Below are positions 44,601 to 63,297 of a stretch of DNA of 64,000 nt, in pieces. The number at the start of each line of letters is the position of its first letter. Position 1 is the first letter of the stretch. A program made the translations under genes and the position numbers. The notes beneath the pieces are model-generated. The model had not been told where the DNA came from. It worked only from the letters and a program-made list of their open reading frames with translations, and did no database searches. Source of the DNA: Thiosocius teredinicola (GTDB lineage: Bacteria; Pseudomonadota; Gammaproteobacteria; Chromatiales; Chromatiaceae); NCBI RefSeq assembly GCF_002009425.1, contig NZ_CP019936.1, forward strand, positions 1,039,001 through 1,103,000, in the 5' to 3' direction.

Positions 44601-45966
44601 GGCGTACCGGTGTGTCGAACGCCGGGCCTTGCAGATACGACAGCTTGCCGAGGTCGGCGCGTAGCGGAGCGTCCGGTTCTGCAATCAACTGATCGATCTG
44701 ATCCAACGTCTGCGCTTGCAGGTATTCGATGTCGCGTTGGGTGTAGCGCAACGGGTTGGCGTCGAGATCGAAACGCAGGCTGCCATCGGCGTCGACGATG
44801 AAGTTGAACGAGATGTCTTCGACCGGGCCGGCCGATAGCGTTCTACTGCGGCAGGTCGTGCCCGCAAAGTGCATGGCACGGTCGAACGGCATGACGTTGA
44901 CCACCGGGCCGAACAGGCGACGTTCACCGCCGACGGCTTGTAGATCGCGGCGCAGGTGTTCGTAGCGGTAGCGTTGGTGAGGCGCCGTCGCGCGCATGGC
45001 GCCGGCCACTTGATCGAGCAATTCGGAGAACACGCTGCTGCGATCGAGGCGAATACGCAACGGGATGATGTTCATGACCATGGCCGGCACGCGCAGGCTG
45101 ACCGAGCCCATGCGGCCCATGATCGGGATGCCCAGTGTTAGTTCGCCGGCGGCGCGTTGTCGGTACAGGAGGTAGGCGACCAGGCTCATAAAGAAGTTTG
45201 GCCAGCCGACGCCGCGCTGCTGGCACAGGTGCTTGATGGCCTGCATCCGCTCAGGCGGGATCAGTGCCGGCGCGTGTACTGCCCGATCGCTGATCGGTGA
45301 TGGCGTGTCGTTGAACGACACCGGCTGGACGAGGCCTTGCATGTACTGCTGCCAAAAGTGTCGGTCGGCATCGTGGTGTTGTGACGCATGATATTGGCGA
45401 TCCTCGTCGACGACGTTTGCCAGCGTTCTGTATGAGCGCGCGTTGGTGGTCTCGTCAGGCGTCTGCGCGCCCCGCGCGACGGCATGGTTGTAGCGTTCGA
45501 TAACGCGTTGTGCGATCAGGTTGAAGGCATAGCCATCGGCTGCGATGTGGTGCACCTGTTGGTACCACTTATAGCGCTCGTCCCCGAGTTTGAACAACAC
45601 CTGGCGGAACAACGAGCCGCGCGCCAGATCGGCGGTCTGTGCCAACAGTCCACGCATCATTTCGTCGGCACGCTGCTGCGGGTCGCTGGCATTGCTGAGA
45701 TCGACGATATCGATCTGGGGTTCGGTGATCTTTACAGCCTGTTGCAGATTGTCGCCGTCCTGCCGGTAGACGGTATGCATCGCATCGCATTCCAGCAGCG
45801 TTCGGCGCAACGCGGTAACGAACTGGTCGACGTGGAACACGCCACCGATATCGATGACCTCGGCCGCGTTGTACATCGGACTGTCGGGATTGAGCGATTG
45901 TCCGAGCCAGATGCCCTTCTGCGCCTCGCTCAGTGGCAAGACAGGCTGTGCCACAGGGTTATGCAC
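41614..45966 (-). CDS. NRPS with C-A-T-reductase modules (MxcG-like)
   Basis: The product has about 1450 residues. The start is probably the GTG at 45966, overlapping the aryl-carrier gene stop; a TTG at 46002 is the longest option. Condensation domain: HHIAADGYAF near residue 140. Adenylation domain: YVIYTSGSTGKPKGVV, NTYGPSEATV, YRGRIDDEIKISGHRINP. Carrier: DDFFLLGGQSLQT with the phosphopantetheine Ser near 1003. The C-terminal thioester reductase (from about 1080) has LLTGANGFVGTQ and YQQSK. There is no thioesterase, so release is reductive, giving an aldehyde or alcohol. This matches MxcG of myxochelin synthesis rather than EntF. The hand-aligned specificity code is lysine-like. Confidence 0.93.
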   Translation of the reverse strand: MHNPVAQPVLPLSEAQKGIWLGQSLNPDSPMYNAAEVIDIGGVFHVDQFVTALRRTLLECDAMHTVYRQDGDNLQQAVKITEPQIDIVDLSNASDPQQRADEMMRGLLAQTADLARGSLFRQVLFKLGDERYKWYQQVHHIAADGYAFNLIAQRVIERYNHAVARGAQTPDETTNARSYRTLANVVDEDRQYHASQHHDADRHFWQQYMQGLVQPVSFNDTPSPISDRAVHAPALIPPERMQAIKHLCQQRGVGWPNFFMSLVAYLLYRQRAAGELTLGIPIMGRMGSVSLRVPAMVMNIIPLRIRLDRSSVFSELLDQVAGAMRATAPHQRYRYEHLRRDLQAVGGERRLFGPVVNVMPFDRAMHFAGTTCRSRTLSAGPVEDISFNFIVDADGSLRFDLDANPLRYTQRDIEYLQAQTLDQIDQLIAEPDAPLRADLGKLSYLQGPAFDTPVRPVTTLFAEQARQRPHATALVDGHNELSYAQLHAACEQLARRLKALDIEEGDLVALALPRGKEAVTTSLALLMIGAAYVFIDPHGPELRNRTILDDAQPRMLVYADQPSPAGTDIPAIAFVELVADNPALDGVVEPFAPASTSDRSAAYVIYTSGSTGKPKGVVVSHQALAEFVVGAQQTYGIAANDRVLQFAPLHFDASVEEIFVTLCSGACLVVRDDDMIASVPGFIEQCDRWRISVLDLPTAYWHELVYYCASAGLMLPTRLRCVIIGGEAAQAERLAQWHAVNPNNARLLNTYGPSEATVVATCAQLNAQSPLSIGTPLPGRDVFVLDVHGHLCPTGVAGELVLAGAGLANGYLNGETFSHQPFRTLHLPFLNAPQRVYHTGDRVCLTPSGDIDYRGRIDDEIKISGHRINPLEIEAAILRLPDVDQAALVAVGQADGSKFLAAFVVSNKAWSLVQLRRQLASHLPAAMLPTSLAIVESLPKSTAGKVDRRRLVEMCGESSAHSTTIAAASLSNHERLIIDTWQQVLGQRTISADDDFFLLGGQSLQTIQVANRLSAALNDDIPVTLLFEHPTVRQLAAALEDRQGTVHEDVRRQVEHDSRLDTPVVAQYDTPPANGLLSDNVATVLLTGANGFVGTQLLYQLLEQTGARVVCLLRGSDEHHARQKLRDALHAANLPYDRYAERIEVVVADLERTGLGLSEPTRQRLSDTVDAIWHNAAVTSVMRSYRSLRAANLDSTRALLEIATPRRVPMHYVSTIAVGAMNAAPGYVLPEDFVAWHAGLQDGYQQSKWASERLLAQAAEQGQPVAIYRLGRVSGHSISGYFNRGDLAWRILQAAIHHGCAPEFDFAEPWTPVDQVALAMVSLARQTTNSGVFNCVPSQRLTLQQMFAWLRELDYPLRSAPLSAWLAQLRNADDPDHQALAAFFEQRAALAGSAALSGVANAALERMVDTTDLPMPSVERMTFANYMHHATQQGWIKPAAARTVTQQESA

Positions 45967-46894
45967 GGCGTCGTACTTCGCCAGCGGGTGCGTCGGTTGC
46001 AAGGCGCTGTTCGATCAGCGCCCACCAGGTGCCTACACTGGTCGATTCGGCGAGTTCCGTGAAGCTGACATCGGCGCCTATCTCTCGCCAGGTCTCGAGC
46101 AGGCTCATCAGGCGAATCGAGTCCAGTCCCAGGTACATCAGGTTATCGTCGTCGCCCACTTCGTCGACGGAGATGCCCAGGCTGTCGGCAATCTGCAGTT
46201 TCATCGTCGCGAGATTCAGCGGCAGTTTCGATGGGTCCGACGTGGGGGCGTGAGCGGCGTTGCGCAACATCGCAATGGCATTGTCCAACAACGCCACGAC
46301 GCCGCAACGCTGAGCGACGTAGTTCAGCGCCATGCTTTGCTCTGCGGCGCTGAAATCGGCGACCGCATTGCCGACAACGAAGGTTTGGATGTCGCTCATA
46401 AAGGCTTCGAGACTGGTGGCCAGGATGCCGATGTGTGCGTACACGCCGCAGACGATCAACTGGTCGCGTCCTTCTTCGCGCATGAAGTCGTGCAGCGGTG
46501 TGCGCTGGAACGCGCTGTAGCGCCACTTGGTGTATTGCCGGTCGTCGCCGTCGGGTTGTACGCCGGCGTCGATAGCCTGCGCATGGGCATCATCGGCCAA
46601 GCCCGTTCCCCAGAAATCGGTCAGCAGGGCGCGATCGTGTGGCGATTGATTGCCGGGTTGTGCCGTGTAGACCACCGGCACGCCGACCTCTTTGCACACG
46701 TCGCGCAACCGCCGAATGTTCGGCAGCAGCTCGGTGATGGGTTCGCGGTCGCGATCGTAGAAGTCGAGGAAGTAGTTCTGCATGTCGTGCACAAGCAACA
46801 CGGCTCGCGCAGGGTCGAGTTGCCAATCGGCGCGGTTGACCGGCGTCGTCTCGACATCGGCGAGGGCATAGGGTTGGATCTTGGGTATGGCCAT
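45959..46894 (-). CDS. entB: Bifunctional isochorismatase / aryl carrier protein (EntB-like)
   Basis: The product has 311 residues. The isochorismatase domain (about 1-215) starts MAIPKIQPYALADVETTPVN and has VLLVHDMQNYFLDFY, TKWRYSAFQRTPL and VCGVYAHIGILATS. The C-terminal aryl carrier domain (about 232-300) has LMYLGLDSIRLMSLLE with the phosphopantetheine Ser. It makes 2,3-dihydro-2,3-dihydroxybenzoate and carries the activated 2,3-dihydroxybenzoyl group to the NRPS. It lies 37 bp after the ligase gene, and its stop overlaps the NRPS start. Confidence 0.94.
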   Translation of the reverse strand: MAIPKIQPYALADVETTPVNRADWQLDPARAVLLVHDMQNYFLDFYDRDREPITELLPNIRRLRDVCKEVGVPVVYTAQPGNQSPHDRALLTDFWGTGLADDAHAQAIDAGVQPDGDDRQYTKWRYSAFQRTPLHDFMREEGRDQLIVCGVYAHIGILATSLEAFMSDIQTFVVGNAVADFSAAEQSMALNYVAQRCGVVALLDNAIAMLRNAAHAPTSDPSKLPLNLATMKLQIADSLGISVDEVGDDDNLMYLGLDSIRLMSLLETWREIGADVSFTELAESTSVGTWWALIEQRLATDAPAGEVRRRA

Positions 46895-46931
46895 GGGTGT
46901 ATCTCGTTGCGGTTGGTCGGCTTGTGCGTGA

Positions 46932-48595
<1,664 letters not shown>

Positions 48596-48596
<1 letters not shown>

Positions 48597-49777
48597 CAGA
48601 TGCCGAGCGCCTGACGCATGGTGTTGAACTTGGCCTCGGTTTCGTGAAACTCCTTATGTGGATCCGAACCGTCGACAATGCCGGCACCGGCATACAGGCG
48701 GATCGCCCGATCGCTGACCTCGGCGCAACGAATGGTGACCACCCACTCGCCGTCGCCGCGGGCATCGCACCAGCCGACCATGCCGGTGAACAGGTCGCGG
48801 GCGTGCGGCTCGATCTCGGCGATGGCGCGCGATGCGGCCGGTGTGGGATAGCCGCATACGGCGGGTGTTGGGTGCATCGCCAGCGCGAGTTCCAACGAGC
48901 TGGGCAGGTTGTCGTTCAGTTCGCCTTCGATGCGGGTCGATAGGTGCCACATGGTGCGCGTGGTGATCAGCGAAGGTTCGGCCGGCACGTCCAAGGTCTT
49001 GCAGAATGGACGCAAGGCCTGTTCGATCGCCCGGATAACCAGCGCGTGTTCGTGGCGGTCTTTTTCCGAGGCGAGCAATTGCTCGGCGTGCCGGCGGTCG
49101 ATTGCGGGATCGTCGCTACGCGGTTCCGAGCCGGCCAGCGGATTGGCGATGATCTTGTTGCCACGGCGCGAGATCAGCAGTTCAGGGCTGGCGCCGATCA
49201 GGGCGCGGAACGATTGACCGGCGTCTTGCTGAAGATCGATCGCAAAGGTGTAGCCGTGTTTGTTCGCGGCTTCGAGGTTGCGCACCAGCGTGGCCAGGTC
49301 TGGGGTTTTCTCACAATCGACATGCAGGGTGCGCGATAGCACCACCTTGTCGAGTTCGCCGCGGGCGAAACGTTGCAGCGCCTGTTTGACGCCACCCAGG
49401 TAGGCTGCCTGCTCAGGAAAGCTCGATACCGAAAACCGGCCCAGTTCGACGGCATGCCGATCGGCCTGCGATGCGCGGTCAACCGATTGGGTTTTGACGT
49501 TGGTGCTGACCCGTAGGTAGTTCTTCTGGGCGATATCGAACGGGATGGCGCCGACCACGATGGCGTCTTCAAAGCCCAGCTCGCTGGCCAGGCGGAGGGA
49601 TTCGCTCACTTGCTGCGACAGGTCTTTCATGCCGGTCACGAGCAGCGATGCAAACGGTGGCTGGGCTAGTAGTGCCTGGCTGGACGATGAAAAGAACACC
49701 GATGCGCCGCCCTGGTACTCGTCGACCAGACGTGCGGGTGCTCGGAAAATGTCATTGGCAACAAGTGTTTCGCGCAT
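48596..49777 (-). CDS. entC: Isochorismate synthase
   Basis: The product has 393 residues from the ATG at 49777, with AGAGGA about 9 nt upstream. An open frame to 49885 would run over the regulatory palindrome. Chorismate-binding-enzyme motifs are present: [66 protein letters not shown] and [25 protein letters not shown]. It converts chorismate to isochorismate, the first committed step. It is the first gene of the six-gene operon. Confidence 0.94.
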
Positions 49778-49872
49778 TGATTCAGTCCTCTGCAAACGCG
49801 GCATGTGCCGTGGGTGTTGCTGATCTGAAGAGCACGGCACCCGGCGGTGGCCATTGCTTGCTTCGGTAATAC

Positions 49873-49893
49873 AAATCGCAATCATTCGTATTT
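49873..49893. promoter_or_regulatory. Candidate Fur-type palindrome upstream of siderophore operon
   Basis: A 21-bp imperfect palindrome is centred on base 49883. Its left half is AAATCGCAAT and its right half is ATTCGTATTT, with a single C between (7 of 10 positions symmetric). The core CAATCATT matches the centre of Fur boxes, but the flanks are weak against the consensus. It sits about 95 bp before the entC start. Assigned from symmetry and context only. Confidence 0.4.
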
Positions 49894-50019
49894 ACAGAAT
49901 GGATTTAAGCAAACGGGGCGAGGGCTGTATAGGGAAAAACAGTTTGCTAAACAGGCAAAACGTTATGCGGAATCGCCACCCGACCACGACCCGCGTCGGT
50001 CGCCCGGCCGAGGCTTAGC

Positions 50020-50808
50020 TCATGAGTCGACGGGGAAATACTTGAACGACGGGGTATCGGCGGCGCTGCAACGGATGGCGACGCTGAGCAGGTGCGACTC
50101 GCTCAGTTGTCGGTGGCGAAAGTGCCAGAGTTGGGGATGTGGTTCGATGTTGTGAGGCGCCGATAGCGAGGCAACATCGCCTTCTTCTGCGGCAAAGATC
50201 AACGCGTGCGTCGGAAAGCCAATGCCGATGCCGCGCGCCTTGACGTAGGCTTCACGCAGCGTCCAGCCGATGTAAAAGGCTTGCAGGTGTTGCGTCCCGT
50301 CGAGTGTTTCCAACGCCGCAGTCTCGGCCGGCGAAAACATGCGGGCCGCGACCCCTTCGATATTGCGTTTGGCTTCGAGACGTTCGGCATCCACTCCGCA
50401 ATCCATGGCCCGCGTCACCACGCAGGCGGCGAAGCCGCGCGTATGGGTGAGATTGAAGCGCAGGTTCGGAACTGCGGCGTTGTCGATCTCCGGGCGCCCT
50501 TTTTCGGCGATTCGAAATAGCCACTCGTGCGGCTGTAATGCGGCGTACTTTGACAGTGTTTGGCGCAACAGCAGATGTGATTCGAGGTAGAGGAAACGGT
50601 CACGCTCGAAACGAAACCGCGAGTAGCGCGCCTGTTCGTCGGCCGACAGGGTCGCCAGCCTGTCCGGGCCGACAGGCGTTTGCGCCGGCGCAGGAATCTC
50701 GCGATACCAGATGTGGGCCTCGTTGTCGGCCAGTTCAAGCGGCATGACAAAGGTGGGTATGTTGCAGGCGCGGCGGCATGCCGTCAGTCTGACATACCCG
50801 CCGGGCAT
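50020..50808 (-). CDS. 4'-phosphopantetheinyl transferase (Sfp-like)
   Basis: The product is about 262 residues if started at the ATG at 50808, or 241 from the ATG at 50745. The open frame to 50862 would cross a terminator and is rejected. It has the Sfp-type motifs GRPEI, LRFNLTHTRGFAACVV, DCGVDAERLEAKRN (metal-binding Asp/Glu) and FYIGWTLREAYVKARGIGIG. It primes the aryl carrier and NRPS carrier Ser with phosphopantetheine. It is encoded just upstream of the operon on the same strand, separated by 242 bp. Confidence 0.9.
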   Translation of the reverse strand: MPGGYVRLTACRRACNIPTFVMPLELADNEAHIWYREIPAPAQTPVGPDRLATLSADEQARYSRFRFERDRFLYLESHLLLRQTLSKYAALQPHEWLFRIAEKGRPEIDNAAVPNLRFNLTHTRGFAACVVTRAMDCGVDAERLEAKRNIEGVAARMFSPAETAALETLDGTQHLQAFYIGWTLREAYVKARGIGIGFPTHALIFAAEEGDVASLSAPHNIEPHPQLWHFRHRQLSESHLLSVAIRCSAADTPSFKYFPVDS

Positions 50809-50830
50809 TCTGCTGACCGGTGCCGTAAAG

Positions 50831-50858
50831 AAAAAGGCAGCCCGCGGGCTGCCTTTTT
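50831..50858 (-). terminator. Intrinsic terminator after the DsrC paralogue
   Basis: AAAAAGGCAGCC-CGCG-GGCTGCCTTTTT, symmetrical, with T runs on both strands. It lies 40 bp past the stop of the minus-strand DsrC paralogue. A second short hairpin, GTTCCCG-T-CGGGAAC, lies between them at about 50863-50877. Confidence 0.85.
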
Positions 50859-50897
50859 GCAACGTTCCCGTCGGGAACGCGTGCGCTGCTCGGCGAC

Positions 50898-51242
50898 TCA
50901 GTAACCGCCTTTGCGCGCAACGTAGGGCAGGCCGGCGATGCGGTTGCCCTGTTTGCTGGGTGCGCCGGGGAACAGGTTGTAAAGGTCTTTGCTGCTGACC
51001 TTCTTGCCCCAGACCTTGCCCATGTCTTTGTTGATCTGGCGTTCCATCGGCTGGTTGCCATTATTGTCGAAGAATTCTTCGCGCAGGTATTTCAACACAT
51101 CCCAGTGTTCCTGGGTCAGTTCGCCCATGGTGTCGTCGGCTGCGGCGAGCGCCTTCGCCACGTCTTCGTCCCATGCGTTCGGGTCGACGAGGTTGCCGTT
51201 GCCATCGAGTTCGACCGATTTACCGTTCACGTCCAAAGCCAT
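50898..51242 (-). CDS. DsrC-family paralogue lacking both conserved cysteines (RspA-type)
   Basis: The product has 114 residues and aligns with DsrC over its full length: MALDVNGKSVELDGNGNLVD, ELTQEHWDVLKYLREEFF, KDMGKVWGKKVSSKDLYNLFPGAPSKQG. The C-terminal arm, which in DsrC reads QACRYAGLPKPTGC, here reads QGNRIAGLPYVARKGGY. Both redox cysteines are therefore gone. Cys-less DsrC homologues have been proposed to be regulatory (named RspA in the literature). It cannot carry a persulfide or trisulfide. It may instead compete with DsrC for partners or bind nucleic acid through the DsrC helix-turn-helix-like region. It is a single gene ending at a strong terminator. Confidence 0.92.
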   Translation of the reverse strand: MALDVNGKSVELDGNGNLVDPNAWDEDVAKALAAADDTMGELTQEHWDVLKYLREEFFDNNGNQPMERQINKDMGKVWGKKVSSKDLYNLFPGAPSKQGNRIAGLPYVARKGGY

Positions 51243-51535
51243 GTTGTCTGCTCCTCTTTGAAATGACGAGTGTTGTTTGCATGTCTGCCCAAAGCTCGTT
51301 CCGGCAAGCCCTCAGCCACGCAATTCGACCTCATCATGTGTCCAGCGTTGGCGGGGAGTCTCCGTGGCAGCGGATGCCACTGGGGAGATTCGCCGGGCGG
51401 CTTGGCGAGCCCTCTCATCGACTGTCAGCGTTGCCGCGATCTATGCCGGGCCGCTGAAATCTGGCGGGCGATTGTATTTGAATATCAGGATTTGTTAAAC
51501 CACCGGCATTTTGGCGTCTGTTCGCAGTTCGCGGT
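51243..51535. other. Intergenic region before the DsrC paralogue
   Basis: The 293 bp between the Cmx6-like stop and the DsrC paralogue start should contain the latter's promoter. No repeat array, RNA gene or clear operator was seen. In particular there are no CRISPR-like direct repeats despite the adjacent Cas6-like gene. Confidence 0.4.
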
Positions 51536-52234
51536 TCAGCTGTCGTCTTCGGCCTTTTTTACCGCCTCGATGCCCTTGTGCGGGATCACGATGCCACACC
51601 CCATCCGGCGCAAGGGGCCGATGCCTTCTTCCTGCAATTGCACCGAATCGTCGGCGCTCAGGTCGGCGATCATGATGCTGCGCGTCTGGATCGGGCCTTC
51701 GGGTCCGGCCATTTCCGCGGTCTTGCCACACAGGGCCTTTTTCACCCGGATACCGCGGTCGGCCAGGTGCGAGACGATGCGTTGCAGGAAGGCGTTTTCG
51801 TCGTCTTCCTCGCCCGGTTCGAGCGCGACGTGACGTGCGAACACCGTGCTCTGGCTCGACAGCTTCTTCTGCTTTGGCTTGCCGATGGTCATCTCGCAAC
51901 CGGCCACGTCGATCTGTGCGCCTTCCAGTGCCTGTTCGACGGCAGCGATGTGTTCACGCGGTACGCGCAGCGTCAACTTGGTGCGGCGCGACAGGATCAG
52001 TTTCTGTCCCAATTTCGGATCGGGGCGCTCCCAGCCGTTTTGCGATCCGGCGAGATGGATCGTGTGGATGCCGAAACGATCGTCGTCGATCGCCGGCAAA
52101 TGCGCCTGGATGGCGGCAGACAGATCGTGTGCGTGATCGACCGGCAGTTCGCGGCAACGGATGTCGAATACCAGGTCGACGATGTCTTCCGGCACATCCA
52201 GTTTTTTCGGTTTGTCGTCTTCTTGCCAGAACAT
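51536..52234 (-). CDS. Cas6/Cmx6-like RAMP-superfamily protein, stand-alone
   Basis: The product has 232 residues. It resembles the Cas6/Cmx6 (type I-MYXAN) pattern. It has VDLVFDIRCRELPVDHAHDL at the start, then FGIHTIHLAGSQNGWERP and LILSRRTKLTLRVPREHI. The C-terminal glycine-rich loop is EEGIGPLRRMGCGIVIPHKG, like the G-rich loop of RAMP RNA endonucleases. His residues suited to RNA cleavage occur in DHAHD and GIHTIH. No cas genes or CRISPR repeats occur in the window. It is the last gene of a minus-strand set that begins with a TauD-like gene divergent from dsrA. A role in processing a non-CRISPR RNA is inference. Confidence 0.72.
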   Translation of the reverse strand: MFWQEDDKPKKLDVPEDIVDLVFDIRCRELPVDHAHDLSAAIQAHLPAIDDDRFGIHTIHLAGSQNGWERPDPKLGQKLILSRRTKLTLRVPREHIAAVEQALEGAQIDVAGCEMTIGKPKQKKLSSQSTVFARHVALEPGEEDDENAFLQRIVSHLADRGIRVKKALCGKTAEMAGPEGPIQTRSIMIADLSADDSVQLQEEGIGPLRRMGCGIVIPHKGIEAVKKAEDDS

Positions 52235-52271
52235 GGGGCCTCCCGCGCGGCAGCGTGCCGTGCGCTTTCAA

Positions 52272-52988
52272 TCAGTTCGACGGAATCTGCGCCTGCAGTG
52301 CGTCACGATCGAACCACCATTGATCCTGCACCAGCACGTCGACCACGTTGCGCAGGCGTACCAGGAACTTGTCGGGATCGTTGAGCTCGAGCTTCTCGAC
52401 CCACAGGTCGAACTGGTCCTGGGTTTCGACCTCGCTGTGGCGACGCGCCACTTTGCCGAGCAGTTGCTGGGCAAAGAAGCCGAGCCGTTCCTTCTCCGGG
52501 CCTTCATCGGCGCGCACGTCGGCCAGGAAACAGGCGGTGGCCGCAGCGACGGCGGCGCCATCGGAATCGTCCGGCGTGTCGTCGACCACGCGGCTCAGCA
52601 GGTTGACCGAAACTTCCGGGTCGATCGGAAAGGTCACACCCAGCCAGATGCCGTGGCCGAGGGCGATCAGGGAATCATCCTGGTCGCACTCATAAAGTAT
52701 GTTGCAGGCATCGGCTGCCGCCTCCCATTCCTGCTCTTGCAGTAGGATGCCCAGCGCGGTGTAAGCGATAGGCCAGGCCTCGTCGCCGCGTTCGAGAATC
52801 TGCAACGCGCGGCCGATTTCCAGCTGCAGGCCGGCACGCTGCATGGCCGAGGCGTTTTCCGGCAGTCGCGCGAGCTGCTCGCGCAATTCAACCAGTTCGC
52901 CTTCGAGCTGGGCCTGCTGGCCGAGTTGTTTGCGCAGCGAGTCGGCCGCGGTGTCTTCGAGTTCGTCGGGCTTGAAGAATTCGACCAT
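52272..52988 (-). CDS. Conserved hypothetical helical protein
   Basis: The product has 238 residues from the ATG at 52988; the open frame to 53117 overlaps the upstream small gene out of frame. It begins MVEFFKPDELEDTAADSLRK, followed by a coiled-coil-like stretch (QLEGELVELREQLARLPENA). TPR-like helices follow, with repeated Ala/Leu positions (LQLEIGRALQILERGDEAW, AADACNILYECDQDD). It is strongly acidic. There are no catalytic motifs. It lies 4 bp after the 65-residue gene and 37 bp before the Cmx6-like gene, so they are very likely co-transcribed. The function is unknown. Confidence 0.78.
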   Translation of the reverse strand: MVEFFKPDELEDTAADSLRKQLGQQAQLEGELVELREQLARLPENASAMQRAGLQLEIGRALQILERGDEAWPIAYTALGILLQEQEWEAAADACNILYECDQDDSLIALGHGIWLGVTFPIDPEVSVNLLSRVVDDTPDDSDGAAVAAATACFLADVRADEGPEKERLGFFAQQLLGKVARRHSEVETQDQFDLWVEKLELNDPDKFLVRLRNVVDVLVQDQWWFDRDALQAQIPSN

Positions 52989-52992
52989 CGTC

Positions 52993-53190
52993 TCAGTACC
53001 TGCTGTTGAACGTGGCTTCCAGCTGGTCTTCCCAGTCGGACGGCGTGTCGGGGAAGGGCGGTTTGACATCGAAGCGCAAAAACATCTCGCCCTGACGGGC
53101 AAATTCTTTGACCGCATCCTTGAGTTCGTCGAAGTTCTGGAGTTCCTGATTGGCGATCAGGATCTTGCTCAGGTACAGCATGTCGTTCAT
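52993..53190 (-). CDS. Small conserved hypothetical protein
   Basis: The product has 65 residues: MNDMLYLSKILIANQELQNF, then DELKDAVKEFARQGEMFLRF and DWEDQLEATFNSRY. The ATG overlaps the dioxygenase stop by 4 bp, and the next gene begins 4 bp after its stop. This indicates tight translational coupling in the operon. No motif is recognised. Confidence 0.75.
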   Translation of the reverse strand: MNDMLYLSKILIANQELQNFDELKDAVKEFARQGEMFLRFDVKPPFPDTPSDWEDQLEATFNSRY

Positions 53191-54101
53191 TTCTCCCGCG
53201 GTACCGGCAGGCGCTGGTAATAGCGCGCCCGGTACATCAGTCTTTTCGAGCCGGCGCCGGGTTCGTCGCGGAAACCGTCGCGGCGGTGCAGCACATTGTT
53301 GCTGATGATGCCTTCGCCGGCGTTCAGGCGATAACGGAAGATGTGGTCATCCCCTCGCTTAAACAAGTCCAGCAGAAAAGCGGCGGCTTCACGGGTGGGT
53401 GCATCGTCTTTCCAGATGACGTTGCGCTGGCGCGCTGAATAGCGCATGTGCAGGCTGCCGTCGATCGGCGACACCGAGAACACCGGTCCGCTGTGGTCGG
53501 GGCGGATCTCTTCGCCCTGTTCCGTGTTGCTGGGGATGGTAAAGGCATCGGGCGCCATCAATGCCTCGATCCATTCCGGGTTTTCGTCGCGCAGGCGGAT
53601 ATACGCGATCTCGTGATCCATGATCTCGTTGGCGCCGCCCTCCGCTGCGGGCTGGGCGCAAAACAGCAGCCAGGCGCGCACCTGGTGTTGGCCGGCGTTG
53701 TAGTAGCCGTCGGTGTGCCATCCGAGCGGGCGGTTGGTGTAGGGGATATAGATATGATCGGTGTCGGTGGGTTTGACCGTGATGGCGGTCAGGCCGCTGT
53801 CTTCGGCACACAGGTTTTGATCGAGATCGAGCAGGCCGAAGCGTCGGCCGAGCGCACGCAGCGCAGATTCGGTCTGGCCGAGCGCCTCTTTGATACGAAA
53901 GAACGCAAAATTGCGCCGCTCGCAGGTCGACAGCAGTGTCTGCTGTTCTACGCCTTGCAGATCACCCGGGTCATTGATCTCGACCACGGCCGGCAGACCG
54001 GTTTCGGCCAGTTTCTGCTCACGCCAACGCTGATACGCATCGTCGTCGTTCAGCGCAAATGGCGATGAGTCTGCGGGGATGGCGTACATGCTGGTATTCA
54101 T
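53187..54101 (-). CDS. TauD/TfdA-family Fe(II)/2-oxoglutarate dioxygenase
   Basis: The product has 304 residues from the ATG at 54101; the open frame to 54293 runs back through the dsr control region and is rejected. It has the HxD pair in PLGWHTDGYYNAGQ near residue 165, the distal His in ISNNVLHRRDGFRDEP and the 2-oxoglutarate-binding Arg in KRLMYRARYYQ. It belongs to the TauD/gamma-butyrobetaine hydroxylase group. TauD proper releases sulfite from taurine, but no taurine transporter accompanies it, so the substrate is open. It heads the operon divergent from dsrA. Confidence 0.87.
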   Translation of the reverse strand: MNTSMYAIPADSSPFALNDDDAYQRWREQKLAETGLPAVVEINDPGDLQGVEQQTLLSTCERRNFAFFRIKEALGQTESALRALGRRFGLLDLDQNLCAEDSGLTAITVKPTDTDHIYIPYTNRPLGWHTDGYYNAGQHQVRAWLLFCAQPAAEGGANEIMDHEIAYIRLRDENPEWIEALMAPDAFTIPSNTEQGEEIRPDHSGPVFSVSPIDGSLHMRYSARQRNVIWKDDAPTREAAAFLLDLFKRGDDHIFRYRLNAGEGIISNNVLHRRDGFRDEPGAGSKRLMYRARYYQRLPVPREK

Positions 54102-54499
54102 AGTCAAACTCGCGTGTCGGCTCACGCGCCCGGTCCGAGGAGTAATTAGTAGTTTAGAATACTCTAAATCAGCGCTGGCAGTACCGCAGGTCAAAAGAAT
54201 CCGCGAATCAGATGCCTGCATTGGATTCGTTGATGCGGGGTTAAAACCCGCATATCCCCAAAGGGATAGATGCTTATCCCCTCTATCCCCCAATGGTGGA
54301 GTATGGGAAAGGGCAATGGTCCCCTAATATTAGCCACCGTTGATAGGGGGCATGTCTATCGGGCATCTGCACGGGTCCTGCACACGGTTTGCCCTCTTCG
54401 GAACAGTGACCCCAGGATCACGTCGTTCGGTCGATGCAATCGGCTCGGCGACAGCGGGATTCCGCCAAATACGAACGATTAGTCAGGAGAAACAGCGAC
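54102..54499. promoter_or_regulatory. Divergent dsr / TauD-operon control region
   Basis: The 398-bp spacer should hold both promoters. It contains the perfect inverted repeat at 54153-54168, three TATCCCC copies (54253-54259, 54275-54281, 54284-54290) and a short TATCCCC-AAA-GGGATA hairpin at 54253-54268. Two CAATGGT copies lie at 54291 and 54314. The AGGAGA ribosome site for dsrA is at 54485-54490. No coding frame is convincing. Confidence 0.6.
54153..54168. repeat. Perfect inverted repeat TTTAGA-ATAC-TCTAAA
   Basis: Six-base arms with a 4-bp centre, about 55 bp upstream of the TauD-like start. On the minus strand it contains AGAGTATTCTAA, whose TATTCT could be a -10 element. The same 12-mer lies in the candidate promoter at 29055-29066. 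Confidence 0.6.
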
Positions 54500-55750
54500 A
54501 TGGCAATCGACCAGTATCCAACACCTATGCTCGACCAGCTCGAGGAAGGTCCGTGGCCGAGCTTCATCAGCGGCATCAAACGCCTGCGTGACCAGCACCC
54601 GGAACAGCGTATCAATGAGGTGACCAATTCTCTGCTCGGTCAGCTCGAACACTCTTATGAAACCCGCAAAGGGTACTGGAAGGGTGGCACCGTTTCCGTC
54701 TATGGATACGGTGGCGGCATCATCCCGCGTTTCTCCGAGGTCGGTAAGGCCTTCCCCGAATCGAAAGAATTCCACACGCTGCGCGTTCAGCCGCCGGCGG
54801 GTAACCACTACAGTACCGGCATGCTGCGCCAGCTCGCAGACAGCTGGGAGAAGTGGGGCTCTGGTCTGGTGACCTTCCACGGTCAGACCGGCAACATCAT
54901 GTTCATCGGTACCAACACCGCGAACACCCAGCACTTCTTCGACGAAATCAACGACTACGGATGGGACCTCGGCGGCGCCGGCCCGTGCGTACGTACCGCG
55001 ATGTCCTGCGTCGGTGCGGCACGTTGTGAAATGTCTTGCACCAACGAGCAGAAGGCACACCGTCTGCTGGTCAACAACTTCACCGACGACGTGCACCGTC
55101 CGGCTCTGCCGTACAAGTTCAAGTTCAAGGTCTCGGGTTGCCCGAACGACTGCCAGAACGCCATCGAGCGTGCTGACTTCGCAGTCATCGGTACCTGGCG
55201 CGACGACATGAAAGTCAACCAGGACGAGTGGAAGGCGTATGTTGGTCGCAAGGGTCGTCAGCACACCATCGACAACATCATCAGCCGCTGCCCGACCAAC
55301 GCGCTGTCGCTGAAAGACGACGACTCGCTGGAAGTCAACAACAAGGACTGCGTGCGCTGCATGCACTGTCTGAACGTTGTGCCGAAGGCGCTGCACCCTG
55401 GCGACGACCGTGGCGTGACCATCCTGATCGGTGGTAAGCGTACGCTGAAGATCGGCGACCTGATGGGTACCGTAGTCGTTCCGTTCAAAAAGCTCGACAC
55501 CGAGGAAGACTGGGAATCGCTGGTCGAACTCGCCGAAGAGATCATCGATTTCTGGGCAGAGAACGCCCTGGAACACGAGCGTTGCGGTGAGATGATCGAG
55601 CGTATCGGTCTGGTCAACTTCCTGGAAGGTGTCGGCGTCGAAGTCGATCCGAACATGGTCAACCACCCGCGCGAATGTTCTTACATCCGTATGGATGGTT
55701 GGGACGACGAGGCAGTCAAGTGGTTCGATCGTCAGGCCGAAGCGTCCTGA
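54500..55750 (+). CDS. dsrA: Reverse-type dissimilatory sulfite reductase alpha subunit
   Basis: The product has 416 residues from the ATG at 54500 (AGGAGA upstream); an in-frame extension to 54434 lacks a ribosome site. The siroheme-[4Fe-4S] ligands are CVGAARCEMSC near residue 170 and CPNDCQNAIERA near 214. An inserted ferredoxin domain near 282 has DCVRCMHCLNVVPKAL. DsrAB in this lineage oxidises protein-bound persulfide sulfur from DsrC to sulfite in the cytoplasm. The oxidative direction is inferred from dsrEFH and dsrL in the same cluster. Confidence 0.97.
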   Translation: MAIDQYPTPMLDQLEEGPWPSFISGIKRLRDQHPEQRINEVTNSLLGQLEHSYETRKGYWKGGTVSVYGYGGGIIPRFSEVGKAFPESKEFHTLRVQPPAGNHYSTGMLRQLADSWEKWGSGLVTFHGQTGNIMFIGTNTANTQHFFDEINDYGWDLGGAGPCVRTAMSCVGAARCEMSCTNEQKAHRLLVNNFTDDVHRPALPYKFKFKVSGCPNDCQNAIERADFAVIGTWRDDMKVNQDEWKAYVGRKGRQHTIDNIISRCPTNALSLKDDDSLEVNNKDCVRCMHCLNVVPKALHPGDDRGVTILIGGKRTLKIGDLMGTVVVPFKKLDTEEDWESLVELAEEIIDFWAENALEHERCGEMIERIGLVNFLEGVGVEVDPNMVNHPRECSYIRMDGWDDEAVKWFDRQAEAS

Positions 55751-55861
55751 TCCAGATCTAGACCGTTTGGTTAAGAGAAATCTACCCCGCGGGCGGCCGT
55801 AACAAACGGTCGCTTCGCAGGGAAAGCTTTACGCGAATAGCCCCGCTTTTTGGAGGGAAAA

Positions 55862-56935
55862 ATGGCGAAAGAAATGCGCGAGCCGATCGAGACAGGTTGT
55901 CCTGATCCGTTCCAGTACATGCACCCCGTGATGCGTCGCAACTTCGGTTTGTGGGCGTACCACGAGCATCCCCGTCCCGGCGTTCTGCTGCACGTTGCCA
56001 AAAACGGCGACAAAGTCTGGACCATCCGTGTAGGTACCCAGCGTATCCTCGACGTGTTCACCCTGCGCACCCTGTGCGACATCGGCGACACCTACGGCGA
56101 AGGCTACGTTCACTTCACCATCCGTTCGAACATCGAATACATGGTTACCGACGAAGCCAAAGTCGATCCGCTGATCAAAGCGATCGAAGACGCCGGCTTC
56201 ATCGTTGGTGGTACGCAGAACTCCGTCACCATGATCTCGCACACCCAGGGCTGGTTGCACTGCGACATCCCGGGCACCGACGCATCGGGCGTGGTCAAGT
56301 CGATGATGGATGAGCTGATCGACGAGTTTAAACAGGCGAACATGCCGAACCGTGTGCATATCACCACCTCTTGCTGCCAGATCAACTGTGGTGGCCAGGG
56401 CGATATCGCCATCAACGTTCAGCACACCAAGCCGCCGAAGATCAACCACGATCTGGTCGCCAACGTGTGTGAGCGTCCGTCGGTTGTTGCACGTTGCCCG
56501 GTAGCGGCTATTCGTCCTGCCATGGTTAACGGCAAGCCGTCGCTTGAAGTCGACGAGAAGAAGTGCATCTGCTGTGGTGCCTGCTTCCCGCCGTGCCCGC
56601 CGATGCAGATCAACGACGCCGAGCACACCAAGCTGGCCATCTGGGTTGGTGGTAACCACTCGAACGCACGTGGCAAGCCGACCTTCCAGAAGCTGGTTGC
56701 AGCGGGCATCCCGAACAACCCGCCGCGTTGGCCGGAAGCAACCGCCATCGTCAAGCGCATCCTGAAGGCCTACAAAGAAGGCGCACGTGATTGGGAGCGT
56801 ATTAACGAGTGGATCGAGCGTATCGGTTGGCCGCGCTTCTTCGAGGAAGTCGAGCTGCCGTTCACCAAGTACCACATCGACAACTGGCGTGGTGCTCGTA
56901 AGAGCTTGAACTCTTCCGCTTACATCCGCTTCTGA
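55862..56935 (+). CDS. dsrB: Reverse-type dissimilatory sulfite reductase beta subunit
   Basis: The product has 357 residues from the ATG at 55862, with GGAGG 5 nt upstream (a TTG at 55850 is in frame but unlikely). The siroheme-cluster ligands include TSCCQINCGGQGDI, and CPVAAIRP follows. The ferredoxin domain is KKCICCGACFPPCPPMQI. It forms the alpha2-beta2 enzyme with DsrA. The 111-bp dsrA-dsrB gap contains a GC-rich stretch around 55783-55800 that may fold. Confidence 0.97.
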   Translation: MAKEMREPIETGCPDPFQYMHPVMRRNFGLWAYHEHPRPGVLLHVAKNGDKVWTIRVGTQRILDVFTLRTLCDIGDTYGEGYVHFTIRSNIEYMVTDEAKVDPLIKAIEDAGFIVGGTQNSVTMISHTQGWLHCDIPGTDASGVVKSMMDELIDEFKQANMPNRVHITTSCCQINCGGQGDIAINVQHTKPPKINHDLVANVCERPSVVARCPVAAIRPAMVNGKPSLEVDEKKCICCGACFPPCPPMQINDAEHTKLAIWVGGNHSNARGKPTFQKLVAAGIPNNPPRWPEATAIVKRILKAYKEGARDWERINEWIERIGWPRFFEEVELPFTKYHIDNWRGARKSLNSSAYIRF

Positions 56936-56967
56936 TAGCGGATCGACAGACGAGGTCATACGAAGCT

Positions 56968-57360
56968 ATGAAATTGGCAGTACAGGTAAACGAGGGTCCC
57001 TACCAACATCAGGCGACCGACTCGGCATACCACTTCACCAAGGCAGCTCTGGAAAAGGGCCACGAAGTATTTCGCGTGTTCTTCTATCACGATGGCGTGC
57101 TCAACGGCACCCGTCTGACCACGCCCCCGCAGGACGATCGCAACATCGTCAATCGTTGGGTGGAGTTGGCAGAGAAGTATGACCTCGATCTGGTCCTCTG
57201 CGTCGCCGCGGCCCAGCGCCGCGGCCTCGTGGACGACGGCGAAGCCGAGCGTAACGGTAAGGACGCGACCAACATCGCGCCGAAGTTCCGAATCTCGGGT
57301 CTGGGTCAGCTGATCGAAGCCGCCATCCAAAGTGACCGTTTGGTCGTGTTTGGTGATTAA
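56968..57360 (+). CDS. dsrE: DsrE sulfur-transfer subunit
   Basis: The product has 130 residues. The persulfide-carrying Cys78 lies in LDLVLCVAAAQRRG, the position known in Allochromatium vinosum DsrE and TusD. DsrE forms the DsrE2F2H2 hexamer that passes sulfur from TusA-type donors to DsrC. It starts 32 bp after dsrB. Confidence 0.96.
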   Translation: MKLAVQVNEGPYQHQATDSAYHFTKAALEKGHEVFRVFFYHDGVLNGTRLTTPPQDDRNIVNRWVELAEKYDLDLVLCVAAAQRRGLVDDGEAERNGKDATNIAPKFRISGLGQLIEAAIQSDRLVVFGD

Positions 57361-57374
57361 GGGAGTCCGCCACG

Positions 57375-57782
57375 ATGTCTGATATCAAGAAGTTCATGTA
57401 TCTGAACCGTCGCGCTCCTTACGGCACCATCTACGCCTGGGAGTCGCTCGAAGTTGTCCTGATCGCTGCTGCATTCGACCAGCAAGTCAGCCTGATGTTT
57501 ATGGACGACGGTGTGTTTCAGCTGGTCAAGGGCAGCAACACGTCGGAGTCGGACATGAAAAACTTCATGCCGACCTACCGCACGCTGGGTGATTACGGTG
57601 TTCGCCACATGTTCGTCGACAAGGCCTCGCTCGAAGCTCGCGGTCTGACCCAGGACGACCTGATCGAGGTTGCGTGGGAAGACTTCGAGACCGAAGAAGA
57701 GGTCGACAACATTGTCGAAGTTGTAGATACGGAGCAGGCCACCAAGCTGATGGCCGAGTCCGAAGTCGTATTCAGTTTCTGA
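57375..57782 (+). CDS. dsrF: DsrF subunit
   Basis: The product has 135 residues and is a DsrE/TusC-family protein (KKFMYLNRRAPYGTIYAWES, DQQVSLMFMDDGVFQL). It has no conserved sulfur-carrying Cys, as expected for DsrF. It is a structural partner in the DsrEFH hexamer. It starts 14 bp after dsrE. Confidence 0.95.
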   Translation: MSDIKKFMYLNRRAPYGTIYAWESLEVVLIAAAFDQQVSLMFMDDGVFQLVKGSNTSESDMKNFMPTYRTLGDYGVRHMFVDKASLEARGLTQDDLIEVAWEDFETEEEVDNIVEVVDTEQATKLMAESEVVFSF

Positions 57783-57791
57783 GGTAATCCG

Positions 57792-58100
57792 ATGGCTGAT
57801 TTGCTCACTGTTAACAAATCCCCGTTCGAGAAGAATTCGCTGGAAACGGCGATCAAATATTCGACAGCGGGTTCAGCGATTCTGCTCATCGAAGACGGCG
57901 TCTACGGCGCAATGAAGGGCAGCAGAGCCGAGAGCATGGTCAAAGATGCGATGGCGGACAAAAAAGTCTACGCCCTCAAATCCGACCTGATGGCACGCGC
58001 AATTAAAGATGACCGCATTATCGATGGTATCGAGGTGGTCGACTACGCAGGATTCGTCGATCTGGTGGAAGCCAACGACAAGGTACAGGCTTGGCTGTAA
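57792..58100 (+). CDS. dsrH: DsrH subunit, lacking Cys20
   Basis: The product has 102 residues in the DsrH/TusB family: LLTVNKSPFEKNSLETAIKY and ending VDLVEANDKVQAWL. In A. vinosum DsrH, Cys20 lies in the NSLES-C segment. Here residue 20 is Ala (NSLETAIKY), and the whole protein contains no Cys. It should still complete the hexamer structurally, but it cannot bind sulfur. Confidence 0.94.
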   Translation: MADLLTVNKSPFEKNSLETAIKYSTAGSAILLIEDGVYGAMKGSRAESMVKDAMADKKVYALKSDLMARAIKDDRIIDGIEVVDYAGFVDLVEANDKVQAWL

Positions 58101-58143
58101 ACGCCGGGCTGTAATTGCAAACTCTTTCGGAGAGGAGATAGAT

Positions 58144-58476
58144 ATGCCTATCGAAGTAAATGGTAAGTCGTTTGAAACCGACGAAGAAGGTTACTTGGCG
58201 AACATCAACGAGTGGGAGCCCGGCGTTGCCGAGGTGATGGCGAAGGAAGATGAACTGGAGCTCACCGATGAGCACTGGGACATCATCAACTTCCTGCGTG
58301 AGTACTACGAAGAGTACCAGATCGCTCCGGCTGTTCGCGTTCTGACCAAAGCCGTTGGTAAGAAAATGGGTAAGGACAAAGGTAACAGCAAGTACCTGTA
58401 CGGCCTTTTCCCGTACGGCCCGGGCAAGCAGGCTTGCCGTTACGCTGGCCTTCCGAAGCCGACCGGCTGCGTCTGA
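58144..58476 (+). CDS. dsrC: DsrC sulfur carrier
   Basis: The product has 110 residues from the ATG at 58144 with GGAGAGGAGATA before it. The C-terminal arm KQACRYAGLPKPTGCV holds both redox cysteines, Cys98 and Cys109, ten residues apart as in canonical DsrC. It receives persulfide from DsrE and presents it to DsrAB; the trisulfide or disulfide form is handled by DsrK. Compare the Cys-less paralogue at 50898-51242. Confidence 0.97.
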   Translation: MPIEVNGKSFETDEEGYLANINEWEPGVAEVMAKEDELELTDEHWDIINFLREYYEEYQIAPAVRVLTKAVGKKMGKDKGNSKYLYGLFPYGPGKQACRYAGLPKPTGCV

Positions 58477-58547
58477 TCGCAGACTGATCTTCCGGGCGGG
58501 CCTCGGGGCCCGTCCGGCCTATCTAACGAAGAGAGGTTTTCGGAAAC

Positions 58548-59291
58548 ATGTCGTTTCTGACGATCGCATTTGCCGCACTGTTTTATGCCGCTACCTTGTT
58601 GCTGGTGGTGGGTTTGGTTCGTCGCATCATGCTGTACTGGAAGACTCCAGCACCGCTGAAGATCCCGACGACCCCGGCGCCCGTCACCCAGAGTGGCGTG
58701 GTCATGCGGATGTTCCGAGAAGTGGTTTTTTTCGAAAGCCTTTTCAAATCGACCAAGTGGACCTGGCTGTTCGGCTGGGTGTTTCACATGGCGCTGTTCG
58801 CCGTGCTGTTTCGCCACTTGCGTTACTTCACCGACATCCAATGGCTGATGGCGATCGTTGCGTTCGTCAGCCCGCTGTTCAAGTATCTCGCATTCGCAAT
58901 GATCATCGGCCTGCTGGGCTTGTTGGGTCGCCGCCTGTTTGTTGATCGCGTGCGCTACATTTCTGCGCCGTCCGACTATCTGATGCTGCTGTTGCTGCTG
59001 TTGATCGGTATCAGCGGCGCGATGACAACGTTCGTCGCCCATACCGACGTGGTTGTGGTCAAACAGTTCTTCCGCAGCCTGATGTACTTCAATTTCGGTG
59101 ATATGCCGAACCTGCCGACCGACCCGTTCATCCTGGTGCACCTGTTCCTGGTTGCCCTGCTGATGATCATCTTTCCGGTCAGCAAACTCCTGCACGCCCC
59201 GGGTGTGTTCTTCAGCCCGACCCGCAACCAGGTCGATAACCCCCGCGAGCAGCGCCACGTCGCCGATTGGGCGCGCAAGCTGGAACAGTAA
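58548..59291 (+). CDS. dsrM: DsrM membrane cytochrome b subunit
   Basis: The product has 247 residues with about five membrane helices and a NarI-like layout. Candidate heme-ligand His residues lie in WVFHMALFAVLFRHLRYF and in DPFILVHLFLVALLMIIFPVSKLLHAPG. It is the quinone-interacting anchor of DsrMKJOP. AGAGAGG lies upstream. Confidence 0.94.
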   Translation: MSFLTIAFAALFYAATLLLVVGLVRRIMLYWKTPAPLKIPTTPAPVTQSGVVMRMFREVVFFESLFKSTKWTWLFGWVFHMALFAVLFRHLRYFTDIQWLMAIVAFVSPLFKYLAFAMIIGLLGLLGRRLFVDRVRYISAPSDYLMLLLLLLIGISGAMTTFVAHTDVVVVKQFFRSLMYFNFGDMPNLPTDPFILVHLFLVALLMIIFPVSKLLHAPGVFFSPTRNQVDNPREQRHVADWARKLEQ

Positions 59292-59312
59292 GACGGAGCA
59301 AGGTCAGCGAGC

Positions 59313-60848: not shown

Positions 60849-60921
60849 GCACTGCGCCTCTGTTCAAAAATACAACCGATCCCACGGGATCATCTGGGCA
60901 TGAAAGTAAGGAGAGTTTTAG

Positions 60922-62883: not shown

Positions 62884-62904
62884 ACCAAACCAGCAGGGGC
62901 CGCA

Positions 62905-63297
62905 GTGGCTATGAAAGGTAAGTTTGGCTTGGGTCTGGTCATGGCATTGTGCCTGACCCTGTTCGCAGGGTTCGGCGCTCCGCATGCCGGTGAAGGTATC
63001 GAAGGCAGCTCTAAAGCGGCCAAACTGGATGCCTGTGTTGAGCCCACCGACTATATGCGTCGCAATCATTTCGAGTTGATCAAGCATCAACGCGATATCA
63101 CGGTGCATGAGGGTGTGCGTGCCACGGATTACAGCCTGGCCGGTTGTGTCGACTGCCATGTGCGCAAAGATGCACAAGGTCAGCACGTCCCGGTCAACGC
63201 GCCCGGTGAGTTCTGTTCGGGGTGTCATCAATACACCGGTGCCACGCTGGACTGCTTTACCTGTCATGCCACCAAGCCTACGGGGAATGGACAATGA
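62905..63297 (+). CDS. dsrJ: DsrJ triheme cytochrome c
   Basis: The product has 130 residues from the GTG at 62905 (AGGGG 5 nt upstream); an ATG two codons later is the alternative. A signal anchor or peptide spans residues about 5-27. Three CxxCH sites are present: GCVDCHVRK, FCSGCHQYT and DCFTCHATK. A free Cys in LDACVEPTDYMRRNHFE could be the unusual Cys heme ligand known for DsrJ. It is the periplasmic redox subunit of DsrMKJOP. Confidence 0.95.
   Translation: MAMKGKFGLGLVMALCLTLFAGFGAPHAGEGIEGSSKAAKLDACVEPTDYMRRNHFELIKHQRDITVHEGVRATDYSLAGCVDCHVRKDAQGQHVPVNAPGEFCSGCHQYTGATLDCFTCHATKPTGNGQ

Follow-up and report, generated by a model that had tools for sequence, protein, structure and literature searches.

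The locus analysed here raises the question of what a gene for a Cas6-family protein does beside the dsr genes of Thiosocius teredinicola. An initial annotation, made from the letters of the whole stretch of 64,000 nucleotides (hereafter, the window), had described a stand-alone Cas6/Cmx6-like protein and had proposed that a RAMP-fold protein that binds or cleaves RNA was recruited to sulfur metabolism, e.g., for the processing of dsr mRNA leaders. Mere misresemblance of the family had been left as the alternative. The gene concerned, here called Cas6L, is the following:

51536..52234, minus strand: Cas6L, a Cas6-family protein of 232 amino acids with an ATG start, His34 and a glycine-rich loop at residues 204-218

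The protein matches the Pfam family PF09559 (Cas6) with 203.9 bits against a cut-off of 26.7 (E 3.1e-60) and the NCBIfam family TIGR02807 (cas6_cmx6, type I-MYXAN) with 104.7 bits against an equivalog cut-off of 98.85, and six Cas6 models of PADLOC recognise it as well (best E 3.5e-57). Together, these scores place its membership of the Cas6 family far beyond chance. All 45 aligned members of its family, which are 39-78% identical to the protein of the window, match both PF09559 and TIGR02807 at E <= 0.001. The AlphaFold2 model based on this 45-row alignment (pLDDT 88.3, pTM 0.84) shows a tandem RRM/RAMP fold with a glycine-rich loop, in which G204, G206, G212, C213 and G214 are kept. The closest solved structure is that of the Cas6 protein of a type I-B CAST (8fcj_B; Z 24.4, rmsd 1.8 over 196 residues), which was also matched at the sequence level with the Cas6L profile (E 4e-21), and the top ranks of the structure search are occupied by Cas6 chains, including P. 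furiosus Cas6, Cas6e and Cas6b. Cas6L is, by its profiles and its predicted fold, a bona fide Cas6-family protein. Thus, the Cmx6-type pattern and the conserved glycine-rich loop that had been noticed from the letters are genuine, and misresemblance is excluded by the profile scores and the Cas6 fold.

Upstream of Cas6L and divergent from it, as had been noted at the outset, lies the dsr gene cluster:

54500..55750, plus strand: dsrA (TIGR02064, 643 bits; start placed by inspection), the first gene of dsrABEFHCMKLJO, which runs to the end of the window

This arrangement is widespread. Among 369 gammaproteobacterial genomes drawn evenly across the class, PF09559 was found in 118 and dsrA in 119 (112 above the curated cut-off and seven strong partial matches). 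Both genes were present in 111 genomes, only Cas6L in seven, only dsrA in eight and neither in 243, which corresponds to a Fisher p of 7e-75 in a test that ignores phylogeny. The 118 carriers come from 57 families, and in 55 of these at least one genome has both genes. In all seven genomes scored as Cas6L only, the contig breaks off at most 2.6 kb from the start of the gene, towards where dsrA would lie, and at one of these ends (L127) a piece of dsrA is visible. The matches of Cas6L and dsrA are at most 10 kb apart in 82 of the 111 genomes, divergent in each of the 82, with a median gap of 1.73 kb; the remaining 29 genomes have them on separate contigs (27 genomes) or far apart on one contig (two genomes). 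In seven of the separate-contig cases (L131-L137), the region around Cas6L was read and contained no dsrA. At least nine Cas6L genes are located away from dsrA, as judged from coordinates (G166, G380) or from the regions (G066, G089, G099, G114, G236, G282, G360).

Closer to the window, 56 of the 93 nearest genomes have both genes, six only Cas6L (one of them, in G082, a weak match without confirmation by PF09559), one only dsrA and 30 neither. In a sample of 299 genomes from the phylum, PF09559 was found in four, all Gammaproteobacteria, and the three new ones also have it beside dsrA. It was found in none of 47 genomes outside the Gammaproteobacteria with dsrA above the cut-off, in one sample in which Dsr may be oxidative or reductive. 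Thus, Cas6L is a gammaproteobacterial companion of dsrA and not a universal one, and a general need of reverse Dsr for Cas6L does not follow. Carriers with names are, among others, Solemya gill symbionts, Sedimenticola MAGs, Thiocapsa, Allochromatium (e.g., A. warmingii, L067) and Thiobius, and seven listed genomes that measure only 1.0-1.5 Mb have kept the gene together with dsrA. On the basis of these comparative facts, a dedicated role of Cas6L in the Dsr system is very likely.

Cas6L belongs to an operon with recurrent content. The usual order opposite dsrABEFHCMKL, as read from 45 listed contig loci, many of them cut by contig ends, is a TauD-like gene (not at every locus), followed by the genes for a 65-residue protein, a TPR-like protein, Cas6L and a DsrC paralogue. 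The corresponding features of the window are:

53187..54101, minus strand: TauD/gamma-butyrobetaine-dioxygenase-like protein, often first in the divergent operon; start placed by inspection at MNTSMYAIP
52993..53190, minus strand: conserved protein of 65 amino acids, without a Pfam or NCBIfam family
52272..52988, minus strand: TPR-like repeat protein of 238 amino acids, all-helical, highly conserved in and around the window's family but variable and without linkage at greater distance
51471..51498, minus strand: TTAACA-16-TACAAT, a predicted sigma70-like promoter that lies between Cas6L and the DsrC paralogue, in their gap of 293 nt
50898..51242, minus strand: DsrC-KGGY, a DsrC-family paralogue of 114 amino acids, without cysteine and ending in RKGGY, the usual downstream partner of Cas6L

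The DsrC paralogue, the vicinity of which had also been pointed out initially, directly follows Cas6L. In four sets of loci that overlap in genomes, an ORF of the DsrC family lies within 1.5 kb downstream of Cas6L at 25 of 30, 37 of 46, 24 of 30 and 11 of 23 loci. In a collection of 99 such ORFs (72 distinct), 97 end in KGGY and two are truncated by a contig end. DsrC has a catalytic cysteine within its last four residues. The four sets of loci together hold 97 ORFs, none of which has a cysteine at these positions, while five have one further in. At larger distance from the window's family, it is mainly Cas6L and the DsrC paralogue that stay together.

The TPR-like protein has 44 invariant positions in 39 sequences. 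Neither this protein nor the 65-residue one matched a family in Pfam or NCBIfam, PADLOC recognised neither of them nor DsrC-KGGY, and a Foldseek search with the TPR-like protein gave weak matches of the TPR type and none at E <= 0.001. The TPR-like protein was considered as an obligate partner of Cas6L, but this was rejected because eight carriers (G076, G089, G096, G198, G360, G623, G650, G674) lack it. Outside the class, 13 genomes with dsrA were compared, and eight of them gave a weak match to it. As to the predicted promoter, a scan for sigma70-like sites yielded a count no higher than in shuffled sequences; by eye, a motif of the TTAACA-16-TACAAT type recurs in the same gap at four genus-level loci (L031, L032, L036, L037). 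The dsr locus is adjoined by an NRPS cluster (41614-50862), which encodes an NRPS with a reductase domain, an isochorismatase, an AMP ligase, a chorismate-binding enzyme and a phosphopantetheinyl transferase, and from which we infer a siderophore-type product.

Whether Cas6L could still act as a ribonuclease depends on its active site, and conserved residues of its own set it apart from other Cas6 proteins:

51536..52234, minus strand: dsr-type signatures of Cas6L in the alignment, i.e., W3, H57, SxNGWxRP (residues 64-71), R84, E146 and K220

The alignment comprised 104 distinct dsr-type rows and eight others (six CRISPR, one probable CAST and one solo). Candidate catalytic histidines had been proposed initially. 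His34 sits right before the first helix of the model, a place in the fold which, as in other Cas6 enzymes, we take to be the catalytic position. It is retained in 103 of the 104 dsr-type rows and in all seven of the other rows that reach this column. In the CAST protein 8fcj_B, this position holds an Asn, in contrast to the His of the dsr family and of the cyanobacterial CRISPR members. From one conserved histidine in an alignment, Cas6 activity cannot be read.

Among the signatures, R84 and E146 are invariant in the dsr type (104 of 104); an Arg is present in three of the eight others at the former position, and Pro or Ala at the latter. W3 is found in 103, K220 in 101 and H57 in 100 of the 104 rows, with a His at the last of these positions also in the CAST row. 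The positions of the SxNGWxRP insert are kept in 96-102 rows each, and its Gly, and in one row its Arg-Pro, are also found in others. As a set, these residues are near-invariant in the dsr type and not common to the other proteins. In a quick tree rooted on the eight others, the 104 dsr-type rows are all located on one side of a branch with an SH-aLRT value of 94, just below the tool's mark of 95. Within the genus, dN/dS amounts to 0.13-0.43 (21 pairs of seven sequences), which indicates purifying selection on Cas6L.

The absence of cas genes and repeat arrays from the 64 kb, as stated in the initial annotation, was borne out, and the search for Cas1, RAMP and Cas3 genes was extended to the whole genome. 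Tandem and direct-repeat scans of the window gave only short repeats, each with two to about five copies, and no CRISPR-like array, and the neighbours of Cas6L are the dsr, TauD, TPR-like and DsrC-paralogue genes, with no cas3, cmx8, cas8a1, cas5 or adaptation module near it. The genome itself (4.79 Mb, a single contig) has one PF09559 gene; over its whole length, it has no Cas1 (PF01867), no RAMP protein (PF03787) and no Cas3 above the cut-off (best match 36.4 bits against 102.45). The survey of homologues likewise located them beside dsr genes and not with complete type I CRISPR systems. If Cas6L is an exapted protein, the NCBIfam label of type I-MYXAN Cas6/Cmx6, taken as evidence for CRISPR, is misleading for this genome and probably also for its relatives, since all 45 aligned members match TIGR02807 at E <= 0.001 (the cut-off itself was compared for the protein of the window only).

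Cas6L and Cas1 were compared over the 93 genomes, i.e., the own genome and its relatives: 38 have both, 24 Cas6L alone, seven Cas1 alone and 24 neither. For the whole set, the association reaches significance (Fisher p 5e-4), but within the family it does not (p 0.19), and 24 of the 62 carriers are without Cas1. One genome, G051, holds two PF09559 genes, a dsr-type copy (G051:C30:33607-34284, L019) and a second one about 6 kb from Cas1 (G051:C18:26581-27168, L128), which groups with CRISPR Cas6 in the tree; these copies offer a built-in control for functional comparison. Of the seven relatives on cyanobacterial plasmids, five adjoin cas3 and cmx8/cas8a1, and a sixth is part of an apparent CAST. 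On a plasmid of Gloeobacter morelensis (L143:2974-5546), a solo Cas6/Cmx6 gene, the only annotated cas gene within 6.6 kb, is found near genes for a PAPS-reductase-domain protein and a cupin, which is possibly another CRISPR-free use of this family.

The region between the divergent operons contains a conserved element:

54253..54268, no strand assigned: dyad TATCCC-N4-GGGATA, a candidate operator that precedes the dsrA promoter and has no second perfect copy in the genome of 4.79 Mb
54284..54303, no strand assigned: TATCCC-N8-GGAGTA, another dyad, imperfect and found by eye, at about 33 bp from the first
54325..54330, plus strand: TAATAT, a candidate for the -10 box of dsrA, at +72 nt counted from the first letter of the first dyad

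The tandem dyads with the -10-like box (54253-54330) are conserved before dsrA in many Gammaproteobacteria. When one mismatch is allowed, TATCCC-N4-GGGATA has five sites in the own genome, against two for a reversed control. A loose pattern of the dyad was found upstream of dsrA in 35 of 43 leads. The strict dyad is present in 42 of 80 dsrA leads of genomes with linked Cas6L, where 0.62 are expected from shuffles, and in one of two genomes with unlinked Cas6L. The dsrA genomes that lack Cas6L supplied 18 leads, 13 of them from outside the class, and the strict dyad is present in none of these (p 1e-5); within the Gammaproteobacteria alone, none of four usable Cas6L-less leads has it (p 0.12). 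In 72 of 77 aligned leads, the first letter of a -10-like box (TAnnnT or CTAGAC) falls between +70 and +74 relative to the dyad, in 50 of them at +72, and each of the two central positions of the loop is A or T in 75 of the 77. Given the position of the box, transcription would probably start downstream of the dyad. Because of this spacing and the A/T centre, the dyad is read as a DNA site rather than an RNA hairpin, and it looks like the operator of some dsr regulator. A role of the dyad as a CRISPR-repeat-like leader hairpin and substrate of Cas6L was rejected as the leading idea in view of the box at +70 to +74; the changes in the arms of the dyad are as compatible with a symmetric DNA site as with paired RNA.

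Other candidate substrates were sought in the dsr transcripts. Seventeen probable 5' leaders of dsrA, i.e., 16 chosen by hand from the 43 leads and that of the window, have no common fold (RNAalifold -1.8 kcal/mol), and their median single-sequence z is -0.47 against mononucleotide shuffles. Four of them (L048, L050, L055 and L060, of one clade type) have z < -2 and may contain a clade-specific leader structure. Between dsrA and dsrB (55751-55850) and between dsrC and dsrM (58477-58547), strong stem-loops are found, the stem sequences of which vary between species while the hairpin persists; for dsrC-dsrM, this was judged by eye. For dsrA-dsrB, the wider group around the window reached z < -2 in 23 of 31 sequences and the class-wide carriers in nine of 22; among genomes without Cas6L, four of 13 from outside the class and none of five Gammaproteobacteria did so. 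As the hairpins are also found without Cas6L, with p = 0.10 for the 22 carriers versus these 18 genomes, they were rejected as a Cas6L-specific substrate; possibly, these stem-loops are mRNA stabilising or processing elements. An Rfam scan of 49000-64000 produced only a chance match below the threshold (asX4, 15.7 bits against 100), and none of 42 candidate stretches in viral contigs was confirmed. Thus, of the initial proposal, the recruitment of a RAMP-fold protein to sulfur metabolism is supported, given the structural match to 8fcj_B and the dsr-linked homologues, but the example offered for it, i.e., the processing of dsr mRNA leaders, is not, since the dyad looks like a DNA operator, the 17 leaders lack a common fold and the hairpins are unspecific.

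Taken together, the sequence comparisons favour, with a probability of roughly 0.6, the reading that Cas6L is an exapted Cas6 protein, which would serve as a dedicated accessory of the gammaproteobacterial reverse (oxidative) Dsr system and would bind, and probably cut, RNA. This reading is supported by the Cas6 sequence and fold, the retention of His34, the co-occurrence and divergent linkage with dsrA, the presence without Cas1 and the separate branch in the tree, and further by purifying selection and the standing partner gene for a DsrC protein without a terminal cysteine. On this reading, energy metabolism would have taken over an RNA-processing enzyme of immunity for good. As to the mechanism, the fold and the active site suggest that Cas6L still binds and probably cuts an RNA hairpin like other Cas6 proteins. 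The target could be part of the dsr regulon or of its control, and the cysteine-less DsrC paralogue might signal the state of the sulfur-relay chain (DsrEFH-DsrC) to Cas6L, so that dsr expression or mRNA balance would track the sulfur supply. This full scheme, in which a domesticated CRISPR ribonuclease cuts dsr-related RNA and the cysteine-less DsrC couples the cut to the sulfur load of DsrEFH-DsrC, is put forward as tentative.

A rather unlikely alternative is that the RAMP fold serves as a binding scaffold only. Cas6L would then bind RNA, or a sulfur-relay protein (e.g., DsrC/TusE-like partners or tRNA-related factors), without any cutting, and would act as a regulator or assembly factor. 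The constant neighbour from the TusE/DsrC family agrees with this idea, and so does the poor order of near-invariant dsr-type segments in the model (residues 1-8, and block 61-70 with a mean pLDDT of 59), as expected for partner contacts; yet the histidine at the catalytic position has been kept in all but one of the 104 rows despite the divergence of the family (39-78% identity). Action at the DNA level, where Cas6L and/or DsrC-KGGY would help to control the dyad upstream of dsrA, is favoured by the enrichment of the strict motif, with its one perfect genomic copy, in Cas6L-linked leads and by its absence from the 18 Cas6L-less ones. It is improbable nevertheless: most of these controls are from outside the class, the gammaproteobacterial comparison is not significant, and 38 of the 80 Cas6L-linked leads lack the strict motif. 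Moreover, Cas6 proteins are RNA binders.

A conventional role of Cas6L, with CRISPR transcripts processed in trans, or its origin as a leftover of a type I-MYXAN system that has since been lost, could be argued from the NCBIfam call above its cut-off and from the association with Cas1 over the 93 relatives. This explanation is very improbable in view of the own genome, which lacks Cas1, RAMP proteins and an over-cut-off Cas3, and of the 24 Cas1-free carriers and the insignificant association within the family. In addition, the plasmid relatives do adjoin cas3 and cmx8/cas8a1 in five of seven cases, with the sixth in an apparent CAST, G051 has a Cas1-linked copy besides its dsr-type one, and persistence together with dsrA across 55 families is hardly expected of a remnant. 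Finally, Cas6L could be a hitch-hiker that keeps its place beside dsrA and does something unrelated, as some gene order is kept by vertical inheritance alone and the co-occurrence test takes no account of phylogeny, but this is scarcely credible when the presence or absence of the gene tracks dsrA even where the two are unlinked (e.g., in G166 and G380).

If exaptation is the correct reading, a CRISPR processing enzyme has, in one bacterial class, an existence apart from immunity, in which it accompanies dissimilatory sulfite reductase almost universally, also in reduced genomes. The tentative scheme of RNA-level control given above would amount to the lasting exaptation of one cas gene for core energy metabolism, passed on mostly by vertical descent and working without guide RNA or any other Cas protein. 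Exaptation would also provide a testable handle on the control of dsr expression and a CRISPR-free setting for the action of Cas6 on cellular RNA.

The adjacency appears to have been drawn in print already. In a study on mangrove MAGs, some of them Chromatiales, the legend of Figure 3B on the organisation of dissimilatory sulfur genes lists "purple: cas6" (PMC10989796); the accompanying text mentions cas6 nowhere else and CRISPR not at all, and this cas6 is very probably the same gene as Cas6L. A search of openly accessible journal papers found no published discussion of the adjacency, conservation or function of cas6 at dsr loci, and this use of the known Cas6 family appears to be undescribed. 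The passages found elsewhere mention cas6 in ordinary CRISPR contexts (PMC5728499, PMC10952691, PMC7540712, PMC5944118, PMC8889020, PMC5109826, PMC4046663), and CRISPR reviews are available (PMC8730458, PMC6452270). A study on dsr evolution from 2024 treats DsrR, DsrS and DsrT as other dsr genes, with no CRISPR in its main text, and DsrR is said there to take part in the regulation of sulfur oxidation (PMC11406059).

Among the known systems with which Cas6L can be compared, DsrR, which is IscA/HesB-like, and DsrS are counted among the dsr genes (PMC11406059, PMC3368242, PMC10892978) and are, likewise, accessory; unlike Cas6L, DsrR is not Cas6-like, and the operon of Cas6L is divergent from dsrA. 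The partner DsrC-KGGY resembles the RspA type in being a member of the DsrC family without redox cysteines, but its pairing with a Cas6 protein was in none of the papers found. Proteins of the RspA type are cysteine-less DsrC homologues. With type I-MYXAN Cas6/Cmx6 (TIGR02807, PF09559), Cas6L shares the sequence family, the Cas6 fold, the glycine-rich loop and the histidine at the catalytic position. It is, however, only 24.5-28.4% identical to the seven members on cyanobacterial plasmids, it has dsrA and a DsrC paralogue as neighbours instead of cas genes, and the set of W3, NGWxRP, E146 and K220 is found in the dsr type only. The Cas6 protein of type I-B CAST (8fcj_B) is similar in being used outside defence, but it works in a Cascade-transposition complex, according to the titles of the PDB entries, and has an Asn at the position of His34.
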